The notes under the pieces are model-generated. The model made no database searches. It had not been told where the DNA came from and saw nothing but the letters and a program-made list of their open reading frames with translations. The position numbers and the translations under genes were made by a program. From Oleisolibacter albus (GTDB taxonomy: Bacteria; Pseudomonadota; Alphaproteobacteria; Azospirillales; Azospirillaceae), in assembly GCF_003336875.1 (NCBI RefSeq), contig NZ_QGNJ01000004.1:1-64000 (forward strand): 64,000 nucleotides of DNA, written 5' to 3'. Shown here one piece after another: positions 237-14,621 of this stretch. The stretch's first letter is position 1; every line of letters begins with the position of its first letter.

Positions 237-3200
237 GTTTCAATCCACGCCCCCGTGAAGGGGCGACACGCCGGTCAGGTAATGGCGCAGCGTGCCTTCG
301 CGGTTTCAATCCACGCCCCCGTGAAGGGGCGACATGACCAAAGCCCAAGAGGCCAAATACGCAAAGCTGTTTCAATCCACGCCCCCGTGAAGGGGCGACC
401 TGGGCGGGGAAAGCGACACGGTGAGAGTCGTCCGTGTTTCAATCCACGCCTCCGTGAAGGGGCGACGCAAGCGCTAGCTACCGGGAGCGCGAATCTGTCC
501 GTTTCAATCCACGCCCCCGTGAAGGGGCGACTTGGCTGCTACCACGCAGAGTTTTGCTCCCACCCTGTTTCAATCCACGCCCCCGTGAAGGGGCGACTTA
601 GCGCAGGGCGATGCCGGTGCGGCGGACCGTGCGTTTCAATCCACGCCCCCGTGAAGGGGCGACCGTCGCATCCCAATAGCGGGCAAGAGACAGCGTGTTT
701 CAATCCACGCCCCCGTGAAGGGGCGACTCGTTGACTTGCTGACAACGCGCAACGCTGCGGGGGTTTCAATCCACGCCCCCGTGAAGGGGCGACATGGTGA
801 CGTGCATAGTTGGTTCCCTTCGATGGGGGTTTCAATCCACGCCCCCGTGAAGGGGCGACACATAGATGCGTTCCTCCAGTTCCTGGTGGGACAGGTTTCA
901 ATCCACGCCCCCGTGAAGGGGCGACCTTCGCGGTCGCCATGGGCCGGGTGCTGGACGTGGTGTTTCAATCCACGCCCCCGTGAAGGGGCGACCCAGACCA
1001 CGGCGGATGGTCTGGTCACCGTGGCCGTTTCAATCCACGCCCCCGTGAAGGGGCGACTTCTCGGTATCGCTGTCCTGCGGCGTAGACCGGGTTGTTTCAA
1101 TCCACGCCCCCGTGAAGGGGCGACGCGCCACCCACCCCGGCGTCAAGCGCCCGTCGCCGTTTCAATCCACGCCCCCGTGAAGGGGCGACTATGCTTGCCG
1201 TTGCCCGCGCATCGCAGGAGGGGGTTTCAATCCACGCCCCCGTGAAGGGGCGACCAGGGTGGCGCTGTGGCAGAGGTATTGGCCGGCGTTTCAATCCACG
1301 CCCCCGTGAAGGGGCGACGCGCTGGCTTTCCCATGGTCAGCGCTCCACTTTGTTTCAATCCACGCCCCCGTGAAGGGGCGACCTTGCCCAAGGGGCGGAC
1401 AGGGCAGTCATCGGGCAGTTTCAATCCACGCCCCCGTGAAGGGGCGACGCGTGGGGCTGGCCGGATAACCGCATCGGCGCCGTTTCAATCCACGCCCCCG
1501 TGAAGGGGCGACGCAGCGCGTCCGTCGGCGCCGCCAGAGCGTCGGTGTTTCAATCCACGCCCCCGTGAAGGGGCGACCCCAGCGCGTAGCGGCCGCCGAG
1601 GGCCGGCAGCTTGTTTCAATCCACGCCCCCGTGAAGGGGCGACCCCAGATGCGCTTCACCATCCTGCTTTTTTCGCAGTTTCAATCCACGCCCCCGTGAA
1701 GGGGCGACCGAGGCGACGCCCGTTACCCCGCCGGATGAGATTGTTTCAATCCACGCCCCCGTGAAGGGGCGACCGTCCGTTATAGGCCGTTTTCAGTTCG
1801 TCCCAGTCGTTTCAATCCACGCCCCCGTGAAGGGGCGACCGCTGTCGCGGTGCGTGATTTTCCGCACATGCTCCTGTTTCAATCCACGCCCCCGTGAAGG
1901 GGCGACCCCTGACTGAGGAGGGGGACGAGCTGCGCGGCGAGGTTTCAATCCACGCCCCCGTGAAGGGGCGACCTTCGGCTGCGGCTGCGGGGTCACCGCC
2001 CGCGCAGGTGTTTCAATCCACGCCCCCGTGAAGGGGCGACCAGGACAGCGCCTTGCTGTAGGCCTGCCAGACGTGGTTTCAATCCACGCCCCCGTGAAGG
2101 GGCGACCCCTGTACCCCAACCGCTCCGGGCAGGGCCGCAGAGTTTCAATCCACGCCCCCGTGAAGGGGCGACCGGGTGCAGACCACGGCGGACGGCATGC
2201 AGCTGCTGTTTCAATCCACGCCCCCGTGAAGGGGCGACCTCCGACGCTCTGCGGGAGGATATCAACAAGCTGGTTTCAATCCACGCCCCCGTGAAGGGGC
2301 GACCCGTCTCGCTCCCGCATCAGGCGGTTGACGTCCTGGTTTCAATCCACGCCCCCGTGAAGGGGCGACCTCAGCATCCACCACATCAGAAGCTCACCTC
2401 CATGGTTTCAATCCACGCCCCCGTGAAGGGGCGACCGTGACGCGGCTGACCGGCCAGTGGGACCCGATGGAGTTTCAATCCACGCCCCCGTGAAGGGGCG
2501 ACCTTTCGCGGCGGTACAGACGCGGGTGACCAATACGGTTTCAATCCACGCCCCCGTGAAGGGGCGACCCGAGGCGATCCTACGCACGGCCCTGATGGCG
2601 GAAGTTTCAATCCACGCCCCCGTGAAGGGGCGACCCCCAGCAGGGCCGCGCCCAGATCGACACCCCATGGTTTCAATCCACGCCCCCGTGAAGGGGCGAC
2701 CAGTTGGGCGGCGCCCACGTGGTGCCGGTGGCGCTGTTTCAATCCACGCCCCCGTGAAGGGGCGACGCAGTTCACAAAGCAAGCCACGCAGCTTGCGCAG
2801 GTTTCAATCCACGCCCCCGTGAAGGGGCGACCTGGGAGGATGGCGCATTCAACGACTGCTGGGAAAGTTTCAATCCACGCCCCCGTGAAGGGGCGACATC
2901 AGCCTGCGCCCAGCCAAGCTGGCCTTGCTGTTGTTTCAATCCACGCCCCCGTGAAGGGGCGACGAGGACGGCATGCAGCTGCTGCGCGGCCAACAGGTTT
3001 CAATCCACGCCCCCGTGAAGGGGCGACGGGTGGTACGGCGTAGTGGTGCGGTCCGTGGCACAGTTTCAATCCACGCCCCCGTGAAGGGGCGACCCGGCAA
3101 GATCGTCATCATGGGCCGCACGATCTGGTTTCAATCCACGCCCCCGTGAAGGGGCGACCTGTCGACCTGATCCGGCCGATGCTGGCCGGCATGTTTCAAT

Positions 3201-5454
3201 CCACGCCCCCGTGAAGGGGCGACGCCGCCCCCCCTCCCCGCCGATGTCGGCCCAATGGTTTCAATCCACGCCCCCGTGAAGGGGCGACCCGTCGCCTTGT
3301 CGATGACGCTGATGACGGCCTGGTTTCAATCCACGCCCCCGTGAAGGGGCGACGTAGCCGGCCTGGCTGTTGTCGATCTCTGCGTAGTTTCAATCCACGC
3401 CCCCGTGAAGGGGCGACCCCGACCTGGCGTGTGCATGTCCAGATCTCGGCAGTTTCAATCCACGCCCCCGTGAAGGGGCGACAATGCGTTTGCTGCCCAT
3501 GCCGCGAACATAGGCGGTTTCAATCCACGCCCCCGTGAAGGGGCGACGCGCCGCTATTGTAATCACAACAAACGGTGTTGCCGTTTCAATCCACGCCCCC
3601 GTGAAGGGGCGACGTGCTGGCTGACATGTCGTGCAGGGGCGGACCGGTTTCAATCCACGCCCCCGTGAAGGGGCGACCGCAGCTTTTCCCTGCTGTGACT
3701 GCTGTTCCGAGGGTTTCAATCCACGCCCCCGTGAAGGGGCGACCCAAACAGGAGGCCGCGTCCAAGGCTGCCGAGACGGTTTCAATCCACGCCCCCGTGA
3801 AGGGGCGACAGCATTGCTTGCAGATCACCAACGACGCGAGACAGTTTCAATCCACGCCCCCGTGAAGGGGCGACTACCGGCGCCATCATCGACGAGGCCG
3901 GCTATGACGTTTCAATCCACGCCCCCGTGAAGGGGCGACCAGGACGGGGCCGGTGAGGTCCTTTTTAATGGCAGTTTCAATCCACGCCCCCGTGAAGGGG
4001 CGACCGATCTTGGCGTTAATCTCCGTCTCCTGACGGAGGTTTCAATCCACGCCCCCGTGAAGGGGCGACCAGTGGCCGGCCCAGGGCCGGCCCAGATCAT
4101 GGAAGTTTCAATCCACGCCCCCGTGAAGGGGCGACATGCACCATCCGCACTAGCGCGATTGCAGGGGTCGTTTCAATCCACGCCCCCGTGAAGGGGCGAC
4201 GACGGGTCAGCAGGCGACGCAGCTGAGCTATCAGTTGTTTCAATCCACGCCCCCGTGAAGGGGCGACTTGGATGGCCCGCCTGGCAAGGCGCCGATCAGA
4301 CGTTTCAATCCACGCCCCCGTGAAGGGGCGACTCTCTGGCCGTCGATGTCCGAAAGGGCCGCGAAAAGGTTTCAATCCACGCCCCCGTGAAGGGGCGACC
4401 CGCGAACGTCGTTCGCCGCCCACCGACGCGGGGTTTCAATCCACGCCCCCGTGAAGGGGCGACGTTGACGGTAGACACCGGATCGGGCGCGCTCAAGTTT
4501 CAATCCACGCCCCCGTGAAGGGGCGACGCTGGCTATGAGTCCGCCACGGCTCTGGTGCAGATGTTTCAATCCACGCCCCCGTGAAGGGGCGACCGCCGCG
4601 CAGGTGGCGGGGCATCAGGGTGTTGGTGGCGTTTCAATCCACGCCCCCGTGAAGGGGCGACATAACGATCTCTTCGCCGACCACACGGACAATCGGTTTC
4701 AATCCACGCCCCCGTGAAGGGGCGACGACCGCCTGCTGTCCAAGCTGGCCCTGGTGGATGCAGTTTCAATCCACGCCCCCGTGAAGGGGCGACTCCGTGT
4801 GGTCGGCGAAGAGATCGTTATCGACAGGTTTCAATCCACGCCCCCGTGAAGGGGCGACCGTGTCGTTCCAGATCCATGCCTTGTGCGCTTTGGTTTCAAT
4901 CCACGCCCCCGTGAAGGGGCGACAATGGCGATGACGCTGCGGACCCGCTGGATCGAAGTGTTTCAATCCACGCCCCCGTGAAGGGGCGACGGCACGAACA
5001 ACGACCCGACCTTCGTCCAGTCGCTGTTTCAATCCACGCCCCCGTGAAGGGGCGACGATCCAGCACCGCAAGGTTCTCAATGCCGGAAGCGTTTCAATCC
5101 ACGCCCCCGTGAAGGGGCGACTCGTCGGATCAGGCCCGCGCTTGTACATGGTGGTGTTTCAATCCACGCCCCCGTGAAGGGGCGACCGGGCCGGCCGCGC
5201 TGGCTGTAGGCGTATTTAGCGTGTTTCAATCCACGCCCCCGTGAAGGGGCGACTGCGGCTATGTCTGCGCCCAGTATCTGGCCAGCGAGGTTTCAATCCA
5301 CGCCCCCGTGAAGGGGCGACTCCCGTGGCGAGGGGACCTGCTGCGCCGCCATCGTGTTTCAATCCACGCCCCCGTGAAGGGGCGACAAGGCGCTGCGGCG
5401 CAGCAATGCCTGGACGGCATCGTGTTTCAATCCACGCCCCCGTGAAGGGGCGAC
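237..5454 (-). CRISPR. CRISPR array, type I-C, 80 repeats and 79 spacers
   Basis: I counted 80 copies of a 31-bp repeat, which on the plus strand begins GTTTCAATCCACG and ends GTGAAGGGGCGAC, separated by 79 spacers of about 32-37 bp (mean period about 65.7). Read on the minus strand the repeat begins GTCGCCCC, folds into a CGCCCC/GGGGCG hairpin and ends ATTGAAAC, which is the type I-C form and the crRNA orientation. The array is therefore transcribed leftward, in the same direction as the cas genes, with its leader at 5455-5643. Only one variant repeat was noticed (436-466, C to T at plus-strand position 451), near the old end. Two pairs of spacers overlap in sequence. The low decay suggests an active or recently active array. 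Confidence 0.98.
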
Positions 5455-5643
5455 TGCCTCAACATATACACTTGTCCAAGAATGCAAAACCGCCTGTCTG
5501 GCGCGACCTGCCGTCGGCGGGCAGCAAGGGTGGCCGCTGGGGCTGGGGGCTTTAAATAGGGGATTGTTCCTTAAGGATAATTCCCGGCGCGAACCGCATG
5601 GCATTTTCCTGCCCGCTTGGGGTTCGCGACCGGGTGGGATGGT
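5455..5643 (-). promoter_or_regulatory. CRISPR leader between cas2 and the newest repeat
   Basis: This 189-bp gap has no credible gene. It contains the only AT-rich blocks nearby (5461-5489 and 5550-5581). Its position, upstream of the array in crRNA orientation and downstream of cas2, is that of a type I-C leader, which holds the array promoter and the site where new spacers are added. The exact promoter cannot be fixed by eye. Confidence 0.75.
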
Positions 5644-5934
5644 TTAGAAGATCAGCGGGGCCTCGAAATCCTGGGCCGGTTTGGCGCCCACATGTTCAAT
5701 ACGCCGGGCCGCGTTGGCGCCCAGGTGATAGAAGCGCAGGCTGTCCACCGCCGGATCTATCTCCCCGATCAGGCGCGCGCGCAGGGCGATCCATTGGGCC
5801 GGATCGACCTCGCATTCGAAGACGGAGAACTGCACCCGTTGGCCGAAATCCTGGCATGCCCGTGCCACACGGCGCAAGCGGCGGCGGCCGGCGGAGTCCT
5901 CGGTCTTCACATCGTATGTGATCAGCATCAGCAT
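5644..5934 (-). CDS. cas2: CRISPR-associated endonuclease Cas2
   Basis: This 96-residue protein starts MLMLITYDVKTED, with the first beta strand and the conserved Asp of Cas2 (YDV), and contains QFSVFECEVDPAQW, typical of the type I-C form. Cas2 forms the structural core of the Cas1-Cas2 integrase that inserts new spacers. It is the last gene of the leftward cas operon. It begins 12 bp after the cas1 stop and ends immediately before the leader. The length is normal for the family and no defect is visible. Confidence 0.96.
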   Translation of the reverse strand: MLMLITYDVKTEDSAGRRRLRRVARACQDFGQRVQFSVFECEVDPAQWIALRARLIGEIDPAVDSLRFYHLGANAARRIEHVGAKPAQDFEAPLIF

Positions 5935-5946
5935 TGCAGCCGATCC

Positions 5947-6987
5947 CTATTTCCAGAGAAAGGGCGGATAGCGGTCCAGATCGCCGCGCAGATGCCGGGC
6001 CAGAAGGCGGGCCTGGATATGGGCGATCAGCCCAACCGTCACCTTTTCCTCAAGGAACGGATGGGTCAGGTCCTCCCTTTTCCGGTCCTGATAGGCGGTC
6101 AGCACCGTTTTGCGCGCATCCTCGCGCAGCAGCACGGCCCCGCCTTCATGCTGTTCAAAATCCCGCCCGGTCAGTTGTCCCCGGTTCAGCAGGCTGAGTG
6201 CCACACGGTCGGCCAGCAGGGGGCGCAGTTCTTCCATCAGGTCCAGGGCCAGACCGGCGCGGCCGGGGCGGTCGCGGTGCAGGAAGCCCACCTGCGGGTC
6301 CAGCCCCACCACCTCCAGCGCCGCCCGGCAATCATGCCCCAGAATGGCGTACAGGAAGGAGAGCAAGGCGTTGGGCGCATCCAGCGGCGGCCGGCGGCTG
6401 CGGCCGCGGAAGGCAAGGCCGGGGTCCGCCGACCGGATCAGGTGGTTGAACACGCCGAAATAGGCATTGGCCCCCTCCCCTTCCAATCCGCGCACCCGGT
6501 CCAGGTCGTCGGCCTCGGCAGCGTGGCGGGCGGCATCGCCGAGCCGGCGTTGGGCATCATCAAGGGCGGCCACCCTGTCGGGGGCCAGCCCGTCGCCATG
6601 ATCCCGCAGGGCACGGCGCAGAACGGCCCGCTGGTTGGCCAGCTTCCCCGCCGCCATGGCACCGCCAATTCTGGCGGATGCGGCGGGGTCGTCGGCCTGC
6701 CGGTACTGGCGGCGGCGCAGCAGCACATTGCCGCTTTGTGCGCCCTCCACCCGCGCGACGAATCGTCCATGTTCCGTCAGGAAGCTGACACCGATCCCCT
6801 GTTCGGCGCAAAAGCCCATCAGCGCCGGCGACATGCCGACCCGGCCGAAACAGACCACGCCCCCCATCATGTGGGCGGGCACGCGACCGCGTTCCTGGCC
6901 CTCCACCTCCACCACCATATTGGCGCCATCCTTGCGCAGCCAGGCGCCCTCCGTGGTGACAAACAGGGTGTTCAGGTGCTGGCGCAT
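5947..6987 (-). CDS. cas1: CRISPR-associated integrase Cas1 (type I-C)
   Basis: The 346-residue protein begins MRQHLNTLFVTTEGAWLRKD, the usual type I-C Cas1 start; the open frame extends further upstream but without family similarity. It shows the N-terminal beta domain and the alpha-helical catalytic domain, with GLEGEGANAYFGVFN carrying the first metal-binding Glu, NALLSFLYAILGHDCRAALEVVGLDP with the catalytic His, and DLMEELRPLLAD. Cas1 catalyses spacer integration together with Cas2, usually with Cas4 choosing PAM-correct ends. The gene lies 4 bp after cas4 and is intact. Confidence 0.97.
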   Translation of the reverse strand: MRQHLNTLFVTTEGAWLRKDGANMVVEVEGQERGRVPAHMMGGVVCFGRVGMSPALMGFCAEQGIGVSFLTEHGRFVARVEGAQSGNVLLRRRQYRQADDPAASARIGGAMAAGKLANQRAVLRRALRDHGDGLAPDRVAALDDAQRRLGDAARHAAEADDLDRVRGLEGEGANAYFGVFNHLIRSADPGLAFRGRSRRPPLDAPNALLSFLYAILGHDCRAALEVVGLDPQVGFLHRDRPGRAGLALDLMEELRPLLADRVALSLLNRGQLTGRDFEQHEGGAVLLREDARKTVLTAYQDRKREDLTHPFLEEKVTVGLIAHIQARLLARHLRGDLDRYPPFLWK

Positions 6988-6991
6988 GGGG

Positions 6992-7609
6992 TCAATCCCG
7001 TAAGTGCCGGCGTAGCCAGCCGGCCACATCGTGATGGGTGGAAAGCGGGCGGGGCTGGCACAGGTCCGCCAGGGAACATTGCCCGCACAGCCGCGCAGCG
7101 TAAGCGGGCGGTGGGGTGACACCACCCGCCAGCATGGCCGCGACCTCTGCGGCCACCCGTTCGGTCAGCGCGCGCAGATCGGCATCGAAGGCGATGTCGG
7201 TGCGCCGCCGCGTCTCGCCATAAAACAGGGCGCCATCGGGGACGGGCTGGCCGAACATCTCCTCCAGGCACAGGGCCTGGGCGCAAAGCTGCACCTCGTC
7301 GGCGCGGTGGGATTTGGGACGGCCCCGCTTATATTCCACCGGAAAGGGGATGCCGCCCCGCATCTCCACCACATCGGCGATGCCGGCCAGGTTGAGGCGG
7401 CGGCAAAAAAGCGGCAGGGCGCGCAGCGTGCGCACCGGCCCCCGCCGGGCTTTGCCCGGCTGGTCCGCGCGTTCATGCAGGATACGGCCTTCCGCCGTGG
7501 CCGCATTCTCCGCCCATTGCCGCTCCAGATGGATCAGCGCGCATTGCCGGGGACAATAGAGCCAGTGCTGAAGGGCCGATAGCGGGATCGGTTCGTCATC
7601 GCCGCTCAT
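6992..7609 (-). CDS. cas4: CRISPR-associated exonuclease Cas4 (type I-C)
   Basis: The 205-residue protein starts MSGDDEPIPLSALQHWLYCP. It has the four iron-sulfur cysteines expected for Cas4 (one in WLYCPRQC near residue 19, the others in CGQCSLADLC near the C-terminus) and the RecB-like nuclease core FPVEYKRGRPK, where the E and K are catalytic. Cas4 trims prespacers and helps define the PAM during adaptation. Its start overlaps the stop of the upstream full-length cas3 in an ATGA arrangement, so it is translationally coupled to that gene. Confidence 0.96.
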   Translation of the reverse strand: MSGDDEPIPLSALQHWLYCPRQCALIHLERQWAENAATAEGRILHERADQPGKARRGPVRTLRALPLFCRRLNLAGIADVVEMRGGIPFPVEYKRGRPKSHRADEVQLCAQALCLEEMFGQPVPDGALFYGETRRRTDIAFDADLRALTERVAAEVAAMLAGGVTPPPAYAARLCGQCSLADLCQPRPLSTHHDVAGWLRRHLRD

Positions 7610-9861
7610 AAGAAGCAGGCTCCGGTCATCTCAATATCGAGATGGTCAAGCACACCCTTCATATAGCCAAAAATCTCGGGATCATAGGCGTAATGCCACT
7701 GGTATATTCCAGGACGGGTACGGATTTCCTGTAACCTATTAAGAAATATCTTGTTTGCCCACATCTGGACGCTGCCGTCGAGCAGATCGCGGAAGTTGAC
7801 CTTTTCAAAATTTTCGAGTTTGCCAAGCAGCTCCTTGTCGACCACCACCAGCCGGGTATCCGCGGCGATGACACGGCCATATTGGGCGACGGCGGGATAA
7901 TCATAGCTGCGTTCCGCCTTGACCAGCGCGTCAGCGGATCCTTTTAGTGTCGTGGGATTTTCACGCAGTTCCTGCTCCATCGCTTGCGTCACCAGATCGG
8001 CCGGCAGGCGGTCGATCTGGTCGAAGGAGCCTCGACACAACAGCTTGCGCAGAACCGGGGCGGAGCCGGCGGCGGCCGGATGGCGGAGAATGCCGTCGCC
8101 GGCGGGGATGGCAAAATCGACGACGTGCCCACCGCCGACGGCATTGAATTCGCCGTGGCGATTGACCCGTCCGGCCACCTGCAACAGGCTGGATGTCGAA
8201 AAGCGCTCCCGAAAGCCGGTGCGAAAAGAGATGTCCACCCCCGCTTCAACACAACTGGTGGCAACCAACACCCACTCTTCGATGCCCATATCCAGCCGCC
8301 CCTTCACCTTGTCGAGGCTCACGGCGCGGTCGCGCGGGCACAGGGCGGTGGACAGGTGCAGCGTGTCGAGGCCGGCCTGTTGCATCGCGCGGGCGACCAC
8401 CGCCGCGCTCTGCACGGTATTGAGAATGACCAGACGCGGTCCTGGTTCATTGCCAACGCGATCCACCAGTGCTTTCACCGAGGATAGATCACCGGCCTGA
8501 ACAAAACGGACGCGCCGTCGCTCGGCGGCATTTGCAAGGTGGGCCAGCGTGTCCGGCATCAGTTGAGGGATGGTGGTGCAGACCTCCTCAACCACCTCCT
8601 TCTTTTCCCAGAACCGCGCCAGCGAACCACTGGCCAGCACGAAGCGGCATCCCCACTTTTCTGCCAGTTCGCGGACCCATGCCCAGTTCTGCCACCACAG
8701 GGCCACCGGCAGCGCGGCGTGGGCCTCATCAATGCATATCGCTGAGCCGGGAACCCGGTGCAGCTTGCGTAAACTGCCGGGGTCACAGGCGGCCAGCGTC
8801 TCAAAGAACTGCACCGCGGTGGTGACGATGATCGGTGCCTGCCAACTGGCGGCAAGATCACGACTGGCCCGGGCGGAGAAATCGGCGCGGTGGTGATGTT
8901 CGATAACGACATCGTCGGGATCTTCGCCCGGCAAGGTCAGCGCCTCACGCAGGACTGCAGCGGTCTGGGAGACGATATTGGTGAAGGGCGCCACCAGGAT
9001 GAGGCGGCGCAGTTCTTTGCGGCTTGCCACCTGCAGCAGATAGGCGGCAATGCCGGTGGTCTTGCCGATGCCAACGGAGCCCTCGCAGGCAACGATAGGC
9101 GCGTCAACGGGGGAAGCCCGGCAGGCATTAAAGAAGTCGCTGCGCAGTCGGTTGCGCGCCGGATCACCCTTCGCTTCCGTCGATTTTCTTGCGACATACG
9201 CCTCAAGGCTTGCCAGACGTTCCGGCCAGCGCGGTGCCGGCGGGTCGGGCAACGGCTCGCCGCGGTCGAAGGCGGCGGTGTCCGTATGATCGGCATCCAC
9301 CAGACAGGACAACGCCAGGCGCAAGGCAAGACCGTGGAACTCTTTGACCGGCGGCACCTCGATTTTGCCAAGCAACGCCGCGTGCAGGCTCAGATAGCCG
9401 TCGAGCTTGCCGTCGGTACGGGCTACTTGCTTTTCGTTGGGTAACTCCAGATCGGTGCGCCGGCCCCGCAGCTTAGCCCCCAGATCATCCCGATTAAAAT
9501 GGTCCTGGTATCTCGGCAGACCTGGCGCATGGTGGGCCCGCACGAGAAACGCCCCCGGTCGATTGCCACTGGCCACCAGATGGGCGCAGCCGGCATCGAT
9601 ATGGTCCCAGGTGAGACTGGCGGAACGGCCTTGGCGGAACGCCTTCTGGATGTCGGGATCGAGCTTGCCGAGATCGTGGAAATAGGCCCCCATCCGGACG
9701 GCGTGGAGAAAACCATCCGGCGGGGCCGCCGCATGGCGAAGGACCGCCGCAGCGTTGGCCGTGGCGTCCTCGACGACCCCCTGGACGTGCTCGGCGAATA
9801 ACTGACCGGAACTCCGCCCTTTCGGGGCGGAGTGGGCCAGGTACGCGTTCGGATCGATCAT
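7606..9861 (-). CDS. cas3: Second, full-length Cas3 helicase-nuclease, between cas7 and cas4
   Basis: The 751-residue protein (start MIDPNAYLAH, overlapping the cas7 stop as ATGA) has a complete Cas3 layout. The HD nuclease has FHDLGK at 61-66, DHID at 86-89 and RAHHAPGL near 108-115. The first helicase lobe has VGIGKTTG at 263-270 and DEAH at 378-381. The second lobe has TSCVEAGVDISF and the motif VI segment QVAGRVNRHGE. Motif III reads ASGS where Cas3 usually has SAT. Type I-C loci normally have one cas3, placed first. Here the intact copy is embedded in the operon, coupled on both sides, and clearly differs from the truncated copy at 13380-14621. It is probably the working target-degrading enzyme. 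Its subtype of origin is uncertain. Confidence 0.92.
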   Translation of the reverse strand: MIDPNAYLAHSAPKGRSSGQLFAEHVQGVVEDATANAAAVLRHAAAPPDGFLHAVRMGAYFHDLGKLDPDIQKAFRQGRSASLTWDHIDAGCAHLVASGNRPGAFLVRAHHAPGLPRYQDHFNRDDLGAKLRGRRTDLELPNEKQVARTDGKLDGYLSLHAALLGKIEVPPVKEFHGLALRLALSCLVDADHTDTAAFDRGEPLPDPPAPRWPERLASLEAYVARKSTEAKGDPARNRLRSDFFNACRASPVDAPIVACEGSVGIGKTTGIAAYLLQVASRKELRRLILVAPFTNIVSQTAAVLREALTLPGEDPDDVVIEHHHRADFSARASRDLAASWQAPIIVTTAVQFFETLAACDPGSLRKLHRVPGSAICIDEAHAALPVALWWQNWAWVRELAEKWGCRFVLASGSLARFWEKKEVVEEVCTTIPQLMPDTLAHLANAAERRRVRFVQAGDLSSVKALVDRVGNEPGPRLVILNTVQSAAVVARAMQQAGLDTLHLSTALCPRDRAVSLDKVKGRLDMGIEEWVLVATSCVEAGVDISFRTGFRERFSTSSLLQVAGRVNRHGEFNAVGGGHVVDFAIPAGDGILRHPAAAGSAPVLRKLLCRGSFDQIDRLPADLVTQAMEQELRENPTTLKGSADALVKAERSYDYPAVAQYGRVIAADTRLVVVDKELLGKLENFEKVNFRDLLDGSVQMWANKIFLNRLQEIRTRPGIYQWHYAYDPEIFGYMKGVLDHLDIEMTGACFL

Positions 9862-10739
9862 CCCCAGTCCTTGAGGCACAGATCCTCGAAAGATCCCAGC
9901 CGGCCGGAAATCTCGCCCGGCAGGTCGACCGGGATCTGGTAATCGTCGATGGAGTTGGACGGCGTCTCCTTGTCTCCATCCTTCTTAATCGGCGTCATCG
10001 CTTCGATGATCAGGTAATCGGGGCAGGAGCCTAACGGGTCTTTGTGCTCGGCGTACCAGGCGTGGCGGATATCGACAAACGGCCGTACTGCCGAGGCGGT
10101 CGCCCGATAGGCATGCGGGATCAGGAACTTCAGCAAGTCAATGTCACTGGCCGAACATCCGGTCTTGCGGGCGGCGCTGGGGTTGACGAAGAACGGCATC
10201 GCATACAGGCCGTGCCGGACGACCCGCCAGCCGAGGGGGGCCATGCCGCGATCCTTGTCCTCTTCGACTCCGGCCTTGTTGGTCATGGTCAGCCGCTCGA
10301 CGTCGATGGCGGCGATGCTGACGCCGGGGCCGAATTGCACGACACCGGTGTTGATGAAGTGAGCGCGGGAAGTCTTTTTAGAGTCCTTCATTGATTCCAG
10401 AAAGGTGTTGCCGAAGACGCGGGCATCCCAGTATTCGTGCTGAAAGGTGCTGGCGTCGAGCCTGCCGATCTCCTCACGGTTGCGGCCGCGGCTTTCCAGG
10501 ATCTTGTGCTTCTGCGCGGTGCCGATCAGGCGTGGCGTGGACGCGGCCTTCTGCCAGACCGGTCCCTCGTGATCCTCGACAATGTCGCGCAGCTTGCGTT
10601 TGAACGACACCGGCGAAATCAGCCCACGGCGGTCGGCAGCAAAGGTGCGCGGATCGCTTTCCTGATCCGGGTCGCCATTCGGGTTGGAGCAGCGCGCTTC
10701 GATGATCAGCAGACCGGTGCCGCGATTGAAATCGACCAT
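9858..10739 (-). CDS. cas7: Cascade backbone protein Cas7c (Csd2 family)
   Basis: The 293-residue protein begins MVDFNRGTGLLIIEARCSNPNGDPDQE, the hallmark N-terminus of Csd2/Cas7 (NPNGDPD). It also has QFGPGVSIAAIDVERLTMTN and GMAPLGWRVVRHGLYAMPFFVNP, matching the RAMP-fold body. Several copies coat the crRNA spacer and form the Cascade filament. It starts 3 bp after the cas8c stop, and its own stop overlaps the start of the second cas3. The length is typical and no defect is visible. Confidence 0.96.
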   Translation of the reverse strand: MVDFNRGTGLLIIEARCSNPNGDPDQESDPRTFAADRRGLISPVSFKRKLRDIVEDHEGPVWQKAASTPRLIGTAQKHKILESRGRNREEIGRLDASTFQHEYWDARVFGNTFLESMKDSKKTSRAHFINTGVVQFGPGVSIAAIDVERLTMTNKAGVEEDKDRGMAPLGWRVVRHGLYAMPFFVNPSAARKTGCSASDIDLLKFLIPHAYRATASAVRPFVDIRHAWYAEHKDPLGSCPDYLIIEAMTPIKKDGDKETPSNSIDDYQIPVDLPGEISGRLGSFEDLCLKDWG

Positions 10740-10742
10740 GTT

Positions 10743-11201
10743 TTATTCCCCTTGCGTCGTGGACGGATCGTTGTGGCTGGCATTGTTGCTTTGGACCGGC
10801 TCCAATCCGGCGATGTAGCCGAGCAGCAGTTCGGCACGGAACGCGTCGTCGGCACTGTGCATCGTCAGAATGCCCTTCAAATCTTCGACCAGATGCTTGG
10901 CGCGCCGGACCTGGGAAACTGCCGTACGGATCGCCAGCCCCTTTTGTGATTTCCGATCGCGGGCAAGTAGATCATCGGCCAGTTTCGCCGTTTGTGGCAG
11001 TTGCGCCCATGAGGCGTAGGGCTTCCAGCGCTGACACAGCAATGCCAAGGCCCGCAGCGGGTTGGCCTGTGCCATCGCCAATACCGAACTGCCCAGCAGG
11101 GTCGGCGGGGTGGCGCCACCGCGCACATCCTCGCAATACCCAAGGTGCAACCGATCGGCGACGCTGAGGAACTGACCCAGTTTGAAGGCAGCATCCTTCA
11201 T
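10743..11201 (-). CDS. Candidate Cas11c small subunit from an internal cas8c start
   Basis: Type I-C systems are known to make the small subunit Cas11c from an internal start in cas8c, in the same frame. Here an in-frame ATG at 11201 (MKDAAFKLGQFLSVADRLHL) is preceded by a purine-rich AAGGGGAAGA stretch about 8 bases away, a good ribosome binding site in an otherwise coding sequence. The product would be 152 residues, mostly helical, slightly longer than well-studied Cas11c. This is inferred from position and the Shine-Dalgarno-like sequence only. Confidence 0.55.
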   Translation of the reverse strand: MKDAAFKLGQFLSVADRLHLGYCEDVRGGATPPTLLGSSVLAMAQANPLRALALLCQRWKPYASWAQLPQTAKLADDLLARDRKSQKGLAIRTAVSQVRRAKHLVEDLKGILTMHSADDAFRAELLLGYIAGLEPVQSNNASHNDPSTTQGE

Positions 11202-12749
11202 GTATTCTTCCCCTTCGGATCGAATGATTTTCAGCAGGATGCCGAACAGGGTGAGCCCCTGCAGGGCCGCAATCCGATGCTTTTCAATTGCCTTGGCCGC
11301 GTCGCTCCCATCCTGTCGACGCGAATGGTCGCGACGCAGCGAATGGGCAATTCCGCCAATGAGCGGACCGTAGCGCGCCAGCACCAGACGCAGGATGCCG
11401 ACGGCACGGAGACGATTGTTTCCGTCACCAAGAAACAGCGCCAATGCTTCCGCCGCCGGGACACCAACGATGTCGGCGCGCCCCTTACCTCCGCGAATGA
11501 AAGCGACCCGGGTCAGGCGTGGCAGATCAAGTGGGTCAATGTGGGGCGGTTTCTGGGCGAGTGGCGGCTGTCTGGCTTTTTGCCAGACCGGCAGGCTCAG
11601 CCAGTGCGGAAGGTTGCCTTCCCCGGCGGCCCAACGGTCGCGGGCATCCTTCAGATTCCGGACCGTGACGGCGCGGTGGAGGACCGTCTTGTGATTGCCG
11701 GGATCGACCTTGCGCAATACGCAGACCTGGACGGGTGTCCTGGAAAAGTCGACGCCGGGTTTACCCGCCAGAGCCTCGAAAATGCGGTCGGTTCGCCGGA
11801 GATAGTCGGCCTCCTCCATCGGTTCATCACCATCGGGGGCCAGCACCGGGACGATGGGTTGATCGGGGGCGGCAGTGACAAACGCGATCAACAGGTCGGA
11901 CTGCTTCGGCTTTTCTCCGGGGATGGGGTGCCAGGTCTTGCCCTGGCGCCAGTCGGCGGTAATCGTCTCGATGGCGCCTTGCAACCGTCCAATGGTATCG
12001 CGGCCGACCGGCATGGCGAAGGCATCCGTCAGGCCATAACGGTTGACCGCCGGCAGGTCGGAATTCTTTGAAAATAAATATGTCTGACCGAGGATCGGCA
12101 AATTCGGCTGGGGAAACTTGTCGGCCAGTTCCATCTCGCCGCCGGTCAAAGCACAGACGCCCCGGCGGTTTGTTTTTTCGGCGGCAAACAGGGCGGCACT
12201 GATGGCTGGAGCCTGGTCGAGACTGCGGGCATCGCGGTTGAAACCATCCTCGGCCACGTCGAAATACAGCGTGCCGCCTTCATTGATCAGCTTGTCTGCG
12301 GTGCTGTTGTCGGCATTGCCAGCCGTCACCAGCCCAGCGACGGCGTCGGCGATTTGCCGCCACAGCGCCTCGGGGTCTTCCGTCGCGGTCAGGAAGCGGC
12401 TGAAGGTGGCCGGCACCGATGCCGTATCGGGACTGTCGGCGAGTACGGCCAGCATATCCCGCCGCTCGCCGACCCGCCGCCGCAGCGTTTCACTGCACCA
12501 GTCCGCCCCTTTGGCACCGGTGCGTTTTACCGCCGGAAAGCTGTTCTGCTGGCCGTCGCGCAGGGTCCACAACGCCGCGATTTCCTCGGGCGGCAGGAAG
12601 GCGACGCCGGCGACCGATCCGGTTTCGGTCAGGCGAACCCGCAGGACGATGCCTTTTCCCACGCCCTTGATGTCGGGATGGCGGCCATCGCCGGTGGCAA
12701 TGCTGGAGATGGCAAGGCCGCGCTCAATGGCGCGCAATTCATTCAGCAT
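10743..12749 (-). CDS. cas8c: Cascade large subunit Cas8c (Csd1 family)
   Basis: The 668-residue protein starts MLNELRAIERGLA. That ATG overlaps the end of cas5c by 11 bp, and the extra N-terminal residues of the longer open frame look like shadow coding. Csd1 features include the central CALTGGE segment, SDLLIAFVT near the middle, and a helical C-terminal third. Cas8c reads the PAM and recruits Cas3. The region after CALTGGE (NRYGLTDAFAMPVG) differs from the common SFNADAFESYG form as I remember it, so this is a divergent Cas8c. A probable internal start for Cas11c lies at 11201. Confidence 0.93.
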   Translation of the reverse strand: MLNELRAIERGLAISSIATGDGRHPDIKGVGKGIVLRVRLTETGSVAGVAFLPPEEIAALWTLRDGQQNSFPAVKRTGAKGADWCSETLRRRVGERRDMLAVLADSPDTASVPATFSRFLTATEDPEALWRQIADAVAGLVTAGNADNSTADKLINEGGTLYFDVAEDGFNRDARSLDQAPAISAALFAAEKTNRRGVCALTGGEMELADKFPQPNLPILGQTYLFSKNSDLPAVNRYGLTDAFAMPVGRDTIGRLQGAIETITADWRQGKTWHPIPGEKPKQSDLLIAFVTAAPDQPIVPVLAPDGDEPMEEADYLRRTDRIFEALAGKPGVDFSRTPVQVCVLRKVDPGNHKTVLHRAVTVRNLKDARDRWAAGEGNLPHWLSLPVWQKARQPPLAQKPPHIDPLDLPRLTRVAFIRGGKGRADIVGVPAAEALALFLGDGNNRLRAVGILRLVLARYGPLIGGIAHSLRRDHSRRQDGSDAAKAIEKHRIAALQGLTLFGILLKIIRSEGEEYMKDAAFKLGQFLSVADRLHLGYCEDVRGGATPPTLLGSSVLAMAQANPLRALALLCQRWKPYASWAQLPQTAKLADDLLARDRKSQKGLAIRTAVSQVRRAKHLVEDLKGILTMHSADDAFRAELLLGYIAGLEPVQSNNASHNDPSTTQGE

Positions 12750-13383
12750 ACCGCAATACTCCCTCGACAACCTGGGCATCCTGGACAAAGCGCGGCGCAA
12801 GCGCTCCGCATTGCGGCGCGTCCCACATGTCGATCAACATTGACGGGATGGTGATATTGAGGGCGGTGTCGACCTCATAGCGCTCGGGGCGGAACGGACC
12901 CCAATAGGTGCAGGTAAATTCCTTCCAGCCCAGTGCCGGGGTCTGATGACAACGCCCCTGACGAAGCCGGCGATAAAACAAATCATGCAGATAATGGGCG
13001 GGGTTGGTTCCGCCGCCGGCGCGGCCGCGCACCTCGGCGTAAATACGGTAGCAGACATCGGCCAGCACAGTGGCGAAGAACTGGAAACCAGACCCGCTGG
13101 CCCGCTGATTTCCCTTGCGCAACGGGCCACCATAGTTGGTGGCATAACCTTGGTACTGGACCGCACCGCCGGTGGTGCCCACCGGCCGGCAAATTTCCAC
13201 ATGAGTCGGGCAAATGATGGCGCCTTGGTCGAGATAAGCAATGGCTTCCAGCACCCCCTTAGCCGCCGACCGGGTCGGCGCCGGATAACTCGTCGGGGCC
13301 GCCCCACCGTCAGGACGGGCAAACATCGCAAGTGGAGCGCTGACCTCCATACATATGGAATATGATTGTATGTGGTTTTTCAT
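12739..13383 (-). CDS. cas5c: Cas5c pre-crRNA processing endoribonuclease (Csd5/Cas5d family)
   Basis: The 214-residue protein carries the RAMP signature SYPAPTRSAAKGVLEAI, and further on GYATNYGGPLRKGNQ and GRCHQTPALGWKEFTCTYWG, as in Cas5c. In type I-C this protein replaces Cas6: it cuts the repeat hairpin and then stays on the crRNA 5' handle. Its ATG overlaps the stop of the truncated cas3, and its end overlaps the cas8c start, so the coupling was kept even though cas3 is shortened. Length and motifs are normal. Confidence 0.94.
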   Translation of the reverse strand: MKNHIQSYSICMEVSAPLAMFARPDGGAAPTSYPAPTRSAAKGVLEAIAYLDQGAIICPTHVEICRPVGTTGGAVQYQGYATNYGGPLRKGNQRASGSGFQFFATVLADVCYRIYAEVRGRAGGGTNPAHYLHDLFYRRLRQGRCHQTPALGWKEFTCTYWGPFRPERYEVDTALNITIPSMLIDMWDAPQCGALAPRFVQDAQVVEGVLRYAE

Positions 13384-14621
13384 TGATGTTCCTTTGCGAT
13401 TGAGTACCGACGTCGTTGTCGCGATATGTAGGATGACGCTGTGTCGGGGCGCAGCAGCGGCTGTGGCAGGGTCTGTGCCTCATCCAGGATGATGACGCTG
13501 CCGGCAATGTTATGCAGCTTGCGGCATTTGCCCGGCCGGTTGGAAAACAGGCTTTCGAAGAACTGCACTGCCGTGGTCACCACCACCGGCCGGTCCCAGT
13601 TTTCCGCCGCCAGACGCGCCTTGGCCGCGCCATCCGGACCCTCGGCATCGTTTGTGCCGGTTGCCGTTTTGGCGCTCGGCGCAGCGGCGTCAAAGCCGCT
13701 GTGATGTTCAAGGATGGCGTCATCCTCCCCCAGTGCCCGGCGGAACACATCGGCCGTCTGTTCCACGATGCTGGTGAAGGGAATGACATAGATGACCCGC
13801 CGCTTGCCCCAATGGACAGCATGGTTCAGCGCGAAGGCCAGGGATGCCAGCGTCTTCCCCCCGCCAGTAGGCACTGTCAGGCTGAACAGGCCCGGTTCCC
13901 GGTCTGCCTGGGCCAGCACATGCGTCAGAACGCGGGCGCGCAGATCATTGACGGGGCCGAGCGACGGGTCGGCCTCCACGTCCGCCCGCGCCTTGGCGGC
14001 GACCGCGTCCAGATGGGCCGTCAGGCGGTCGCGCAACAGGGGAAGGCCGATGTCGCAGCCGCGCTCGACCGTTTGACCGTTCAGGTCTGTATAGAAGGCC
14101 TCCGTTGCCAGCCGGTCGGCATCGATCAGGGCAGAGAACAGCATCCGGCCGAGCAAGGAGCGACGGAAGCCGTTCAGATGCTTCATGGAGGTGCGCACCA
14201 GCGCCGGATCGGGCAATGCCACCCCATCCGGCAGCGCCGGCACGTTTTTGACCCGCGCCAACCTATCTTCCAGGCTTGTCAGCCCGTCTTTCAGGCCACT
14301 TCCTTCCCCGTCGGCCAGCCCCGCATGGTGTCCGGCGATGCAGGCCGCCAGCAGCGTACCCCAGTGCTTCCCATACCGCTCCCGGGCGATTACGGCCCCT
14401 GCGGTGGAATGGTCGGGACTGGGTCCCTTCTTCTGGATATAGAGTTGATAAGCGTCGGTTGCCTTGCCGGCATCATGCAGCAGACCCAGCACCCGGCCCA
14501 CAATCGGCTGGTCGAACCGGCTGGCCAGCCCGCCGGCCCGGTCTGCAACCTCCTGGAGGTGCTTGGCCAGCAATTCCCACGTCGCAAAATCGCCATCTTT
14601 GCCGGAATGGGCATAGAACAT
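13380..14621 (-). pseudogene. cas3: Truncated canonical type I-C cas3 (HD plus first helicase lobe only)
   Basis: This first gene of the operon encodes 413 residues and starts MFYAHSGKDGDFATW, the usual type I-C Cas3 N-terminus. It keeps the HD nuclease (LLHDAGK near 48-53, GHHAGL near 97-102), Walker A PTGGGKT at 251-257, PFTSIVEQTA, and DEAQ at 380-383. Ten residues later (after TLPQPLLRP) family similarity stops and the frame closes with about 20 unrelated residues. The second helicase lobe, roughly 300 or more residues, is missing. The 3' end still overlaps the cas5c ATG, so an internal deletion is likelier than random decay. It may be dead, or may still supply an HD nuclease or a regulatory role beside the full-length copy. 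Confidence 0.85.

Follow-up and report, generated by a model that had tools for sequence, protein, structure and literature searches.

The window analysed here is a stretch of 64,000 nucleotides from Oleisolibacter albus. It carries a type I-C CRISPR array of 80 repeats of 31 bp and 79 spacers of 33–37 nt, together with its leader and cas genes. A single base change was found in one repeat only (436–466). The crRNA orientation is that of the minus strand (repeat GTCGCCCC...GGATTGAAAC, with GGATTGAAAC at the 3' end on the minus strand). The features relevant to this study are as follows.

237–5454, minus strand: type I-C CRISPR array (80 repeats, 79 spacers), with transcription running leftwards from the leader at the right end.
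3810–3843, minus strand: spacer 55, portal gene (matches to P22-like sites, with TTC).
4662–4695, minus strand: spacer 68, older of the pair, read as portal gene sense strand (array parsing and homologous sites of relatives).
4727–4762, minus strand: spacer 69, between 68 and 70 in acquisition order (array parsing; database match at chance level only).
4794–4827, minus strand: spacer 70, younger of the pair, read as portal gene antisense strand (array parsing and homologous sites of relatives).
About 5455–5643, minus strand: leader region between the array and cas2 (position and orientation).
5644–7609, minus strand: adaptation genes cas4, cas1 and cas2 (Pfam and PADLOC).
7606–13383, minus strand: interference genes cas5c, cas8c, cas7 and cas3 (Pfam and PADLOC).

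The first-pass annotation of this DNA had taken the system to be type I-C, and both Pfam and PADLOC agreed, recovering a complete gene set with the cas8c signature gene together with cas5c, cas7, cas3, cas4, cas1 and cas2. The profile matches were strong for Cas8c (3.4e-118), Cas5c (1.8e-19), Cas1c (2.6e-153), Cas4c (1.8e-84), Cas2c (4.5e-42) and Cas3c (2.3e-93), while the best match for Cas7 was to an I-B/I-C model (2.1e-49). Judged by its gene content, such a set would in principle be able both to interfere and to adapt. The two modules differ in their affinities: Cas1, Cas2 and Cas4 show 82, 93 and 85% identity with their counterparts in a congener (G006), while Cas3, Cas7, Cas8c and Cas5c are remote from that genome and share 54, 68, 46 and 65% identity with a more distant one (G017). 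An extra cas3 gene at 13380–14621, encoding 413 residues, contains the HD and first helicase domains only and ends thereafter, and its product shares 72% identity with the beginning of the G006 Cas3. The operon (5644–14621) thus appears to be chimeric, the interference module having been exchanged and a stump of the old cas3 left behind.

Spacers 68 and 70, both 34 nt long, match as reverse complements at 28 of 28 bases. The overlap is offset by 6 bases at each end and the two spacers jointly tile 40 bp, CTGTCGATAACGATCTCTTCGCCGACCACACGGACAATCG, so the complementarity, shift and tile of about 40 bp reported in the first-pass annotation were all reproduced. The 6 private bases of each spacer sit at its PAM side. 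The next-best opposite-strand pair within the array scored only 11, which places the 68/70 overlap far beyond chance. Counted from the leader, spacer 70 is the 10th and spacer 68 the 12th; since repeat orientation and the adjacent cas2 place the leader at the right end, spacer 68 is the older of the two and spacer 69 was acquired in between.

The source of the pair was sought next, as the first-pass annotation had advised for the 40-bp tile. Exact, wobble-tolerant and 3-mismatch searches of IMG/VR, annotated phages, plasmids, and the bacterium's own and related genomes returned no exact protospacer; the whole array was also searched as one contiguous query. Matches with 3 mismatches in two congeners (L124 and L125) were set aside, as they agreed at only ~26/40 positions over the whole tile, and a match to an S. 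fredii plasmid (E 0.5) was judged to be chance. What the searches did yield were related sites. The tile encodes PIVRVVGEEIVID, a core segment conserved in the P22-like portal protein (PF16510), and a search tolerating third-position changes located relatives in IMG/VR contigs, where the homologous site reads KYIPIIRVVGEEIVMEGRLDR; wider searches then brought the total to about 160 distinct relatives. One protein carrying the homologous site (L139) matched PF16510 at 2.7e-154 and belongs to PHROG 156, and its gene adjoins a terminase-like gene. The tile is like this family in reading as the PIVRVVGEEIVID core, but unlike it in that the best relatives share only 34/40 bases and the exact phage was in no collection searched. 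A PF16510 scan across the order (81 genomes) yielded a single match (L148), which lay outside the best tile matches.

The pattern of mismatches bears on the nature of the target. L330 differed from spacer 68 at 4 positions, the fewest seen among the IMG/VR relatives, and each was a third codon position. Over all relatives, 1126 mismatches fell at third, 441 at first and 159 at second codon positions, a concentration at third positions indicating that the tile lies within the coding sequence of a portal gene. On the reading frame of these relatives, spacer 68 corresponds to the sense strand of the portal gene and spacer 70 to the antisense strand.

The PAM could be established independently of the pair, with TTC immediately preceding, on the 5' side, the protospacers of four other spacers (24, 48, 55 and 73). 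It was present at two phage records for spacer 24 (one annotated as a toprim-like gene), at a Paraburkholderia phage site for spacer 48, at a Microcystis phage site for spacer 73 and at 42 of 43 distinct P22-like sites for spacer 55; a weaker match of spacer 48 (L463, 8 mismatches) was without TTC. Both flanks of the tile, where the first-pass annotation had advised looking for a type I-C PAM, were then inspected in 156 distinct relatives. TTC stood immediately 5' of the spacer 68 site in 30 and immediately 5' of the spacer 70 site in 4, so that a PAM was observed at one flank or the other, but at both together in 0 of the 156. In L330, TTC is directly upstream of the spacer 68 site because ATT CCG encodes Ile-Pro there. 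On the other side, the spacer sequences suggest that the codon after Asp in the source was AGN, and AGG followed by AA (Arg, then Lys or Asn) would create the second PAM. We infer that the true source carried TTC at both ends of the tile.

The private 6-base ends led to the rejection of two simple origins for the pair. It is hardly credible that the pair is an artefact or that spacer 70 was copied from spacer 68 within the array: where the array reads GGCGAC, spacer 70 carries the private bases CTGTCG, which do not belong to the repeat and exclude copying from the array, and the private ends of both spacers fit the portal gene. Flipped integration, in which a single prespacer type is inserted in either orientation, has been documented in type I-F 'PMC5059440', but flipping would leave the ends in place or let them slip by no more than a few bases, whereas spacers 68 and 70 are shifted by 6 at both. 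The start of spacer 68 is moreover the exact position where relatives carry TTC, and flipping is thus very improbable here. The geometry fits one class of fragment with a PAM at each end, a 46-bp TTC...GAA piece that would be produced many times over and that Cas4 could trim at either end, with no need for priming. The 34-nt spacers do start from the two opposing ends of a 40-bp core, and the type I-C Cas4-Cas1-Cas2 complex cuts directly beside the PAM in overhangs 'PMC6519985'. However, the two-PAM fragment is itself a reconstruction and both PAMs occur together in no relative, and we consider this origin unlikely.

The rarity of such a pair was assessed using a chance estimate drawn from 31 real phage contigs, in which TTC occurs ~35 times per kb when both strands are counted. 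Any two captures made at random from a single 40-kb phage would overlap on opposite strands by at least 28 nt with a probability of 1.5e-4 per pair, and among 446 spacers in 16 arrays only 68/70 showed an opposite-strand overlap of at least 16 nt. Low chance and rarity together favour local clustering of the kind seen in priming, although the 1.5e-4 is post hoc. These numbers weigh on the main competing account, in which two unprimed, independent captures from the same or related phages, made on different occasions, coincided by chance or at a hotspot of naive acquisition. The position of spacer 69 between the two, showing that the events were separate, is in keeping with that account, as are spacers 12, 30 and 42, which look like related sequences taken from variants without perfect identity. 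Nevertheless, even if 20 spacers had come from one 40-kb phage, 0.03 such pairs would be expected, and no other was present among the 446; unprimed capture is therefore a possible origin that we regard as clearly the less probable one.

Spacers 12, 30 and 42 (993–1026, 2173–2207 and 2964–2996) share a same-strand motif, at 19/20 positions between 30 and 42 and 19/30 between 12 and 30, which on the opposite strand reads QTTADG(M/L) or EDGMQLL; they probably represent one gene captured from related phages. Spacer 24 (1774–1808) agrees with spacer 8 of the array in another genome (G118, L453) at 30/35 positions in the same register, and with the two phage records noted above at 31/35 with TTC. 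This likeness is that of one PAM-defined site of related phages captured by different hosts. In the array of G017 (L443), spacers 15 and 17 overlap by 16 nt on the same strand with exactly one spacer in between, and spacer 15 contains the TTC PAM of spacer 17, immediately ahead of the point where spacer 17 begins.

A third spacer was also traced to the portal gene. Spacer 55 matched portal genes with as few as 4 mismatches, while reversed-spacer controls gave 0 matches at up to 8 mismatches, and its site lay 675 bp from that of spacer 68 in 32 of the 46 contigs carrying both. When further spacers were compared with P22-like loci by an amino-acid search, spacer 55 alone rose clearly above the reversed-spacer controls. 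The presence of three portal spacers is partly a matter of detection bias, because detection favours conserved genes, as portal genes are, and the loci retrieved for comparison. Spacers 55 and 68, both older than 70, match the same gene family, and we infer that all three derive from one replicon.

Taken together, the pair probably arose by two separate type I-C captures from one 46-bp portal site of one P22-like phage lineage, the second of them primed or interference-driven. The portal gene of a not yet sequenced P22-like phage would contain the expected source site, TTC-[40 bp]-GAA. Spacer 68 would have been taken first, from the coding strand, and spacer 70 two acquisitions later from the other strand, by way of the inward-facing TTC at the opposite end. 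An older portal spacer, either 68 or 55, would have guided Cas3 and the Cas complex to a related phage entering the cell, and Cas4-Cas1-Cas2 would then have taken a fragment at the target. That the second capture was interference-driven or primed is the most likely case. The PAM and first six seed bases of each spacer fall outside the protospacer of the other, so that phage variants which evade one guide through changes at these positions stay matched by the other. An escaper of spacer 68 changed only in its PAM or seed would keep an identical 28-bp overlap, and the pair is consistent with the capture of spacer 70 from such an escape mutant. The first-pass annotation had proposed primed acquisition or repeated capture from one replicon; repeated capture from one phage gene, on both strands, holds, and priming fits and has a type I-C precedent 'PMC5071653', though this falls short of proof. 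Telling priming from two unprimed captures would take the source phage, as the array alone gives no strand or distance pattern.

The possibility that the two crRNAs pair with each other, also raised in the first-pass annotation, was supported by in silico prediction. The association of crRNA 68 with crRNA 70 was the strongest predicted among 3081 pairs (−44.6 vs −23.0 kcal/mol for the next), and the three-spacer stretch 68–70 had the lowest predicted energy of 77 such windows, at −128.7 kcal/mol (mean −100.9, sd 7.9). The predicted fold contains a 28-bp duplex with the outer repeats paired too. In the pre-crRNA, the duplex might hinder Cas5c processing by tying up the repeats, or mature crRNAs 68 and 70 might anneal, so that the array would weaken its own portal guides; we hold this to be improbable, and Cas protein binding during transcription could prevent the pairing. 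If mutual weakening did occur, selection would act against complementary pairs and could thereby account for their rarity. Whether fully complementary crRNAs of one array interfere with each other is a question that this pair is naturally suited to address.

On the favoured reading of two captures from one portal site, the pair would show that this host line met one P22-like phage lineage more than once. The expected 46-bp signature, TTC-40 bp-GAA, provides a handle for recognizing the phage, and TTCCTGTCGATAACGATCTCTTCGCCGACCACACGGACAATCGGAA can serve as the query sequence for spotting it in viromes.

The closest precedent is in Legionella pneumophila Toronto-2005, where a type I-C array contains two pairs of overlapping spacers that target LME-1; they were read as natural priming from escape mutants, and primed acquisition was shown experimentally in the same system 'PMC5071653'. 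As in O. albus, the system is type I-C and overlapping parts of one mobile element are covered by two spacers of different age. There, however, the target is known and the older spacer was shown to be mismatched 'PMC5071653', whereas spacers 68 and 70 lie on opposite strands, overlap over 28 of 34 nt and have a source in no collection searched. In type I-F, the priming protospacer steers the location and strand of new spacers 'PMC5059440', and primed or interference-driven acquisition likewise places new spacers near the targeted site and on both strands 'PMC4117759, PMC5059440'. That is another subtype, measured by experiment, while here there is only the trace left in one array. The 68/70 pair is accordingly a further example of a described phenomenon, with no new mechanism involved.
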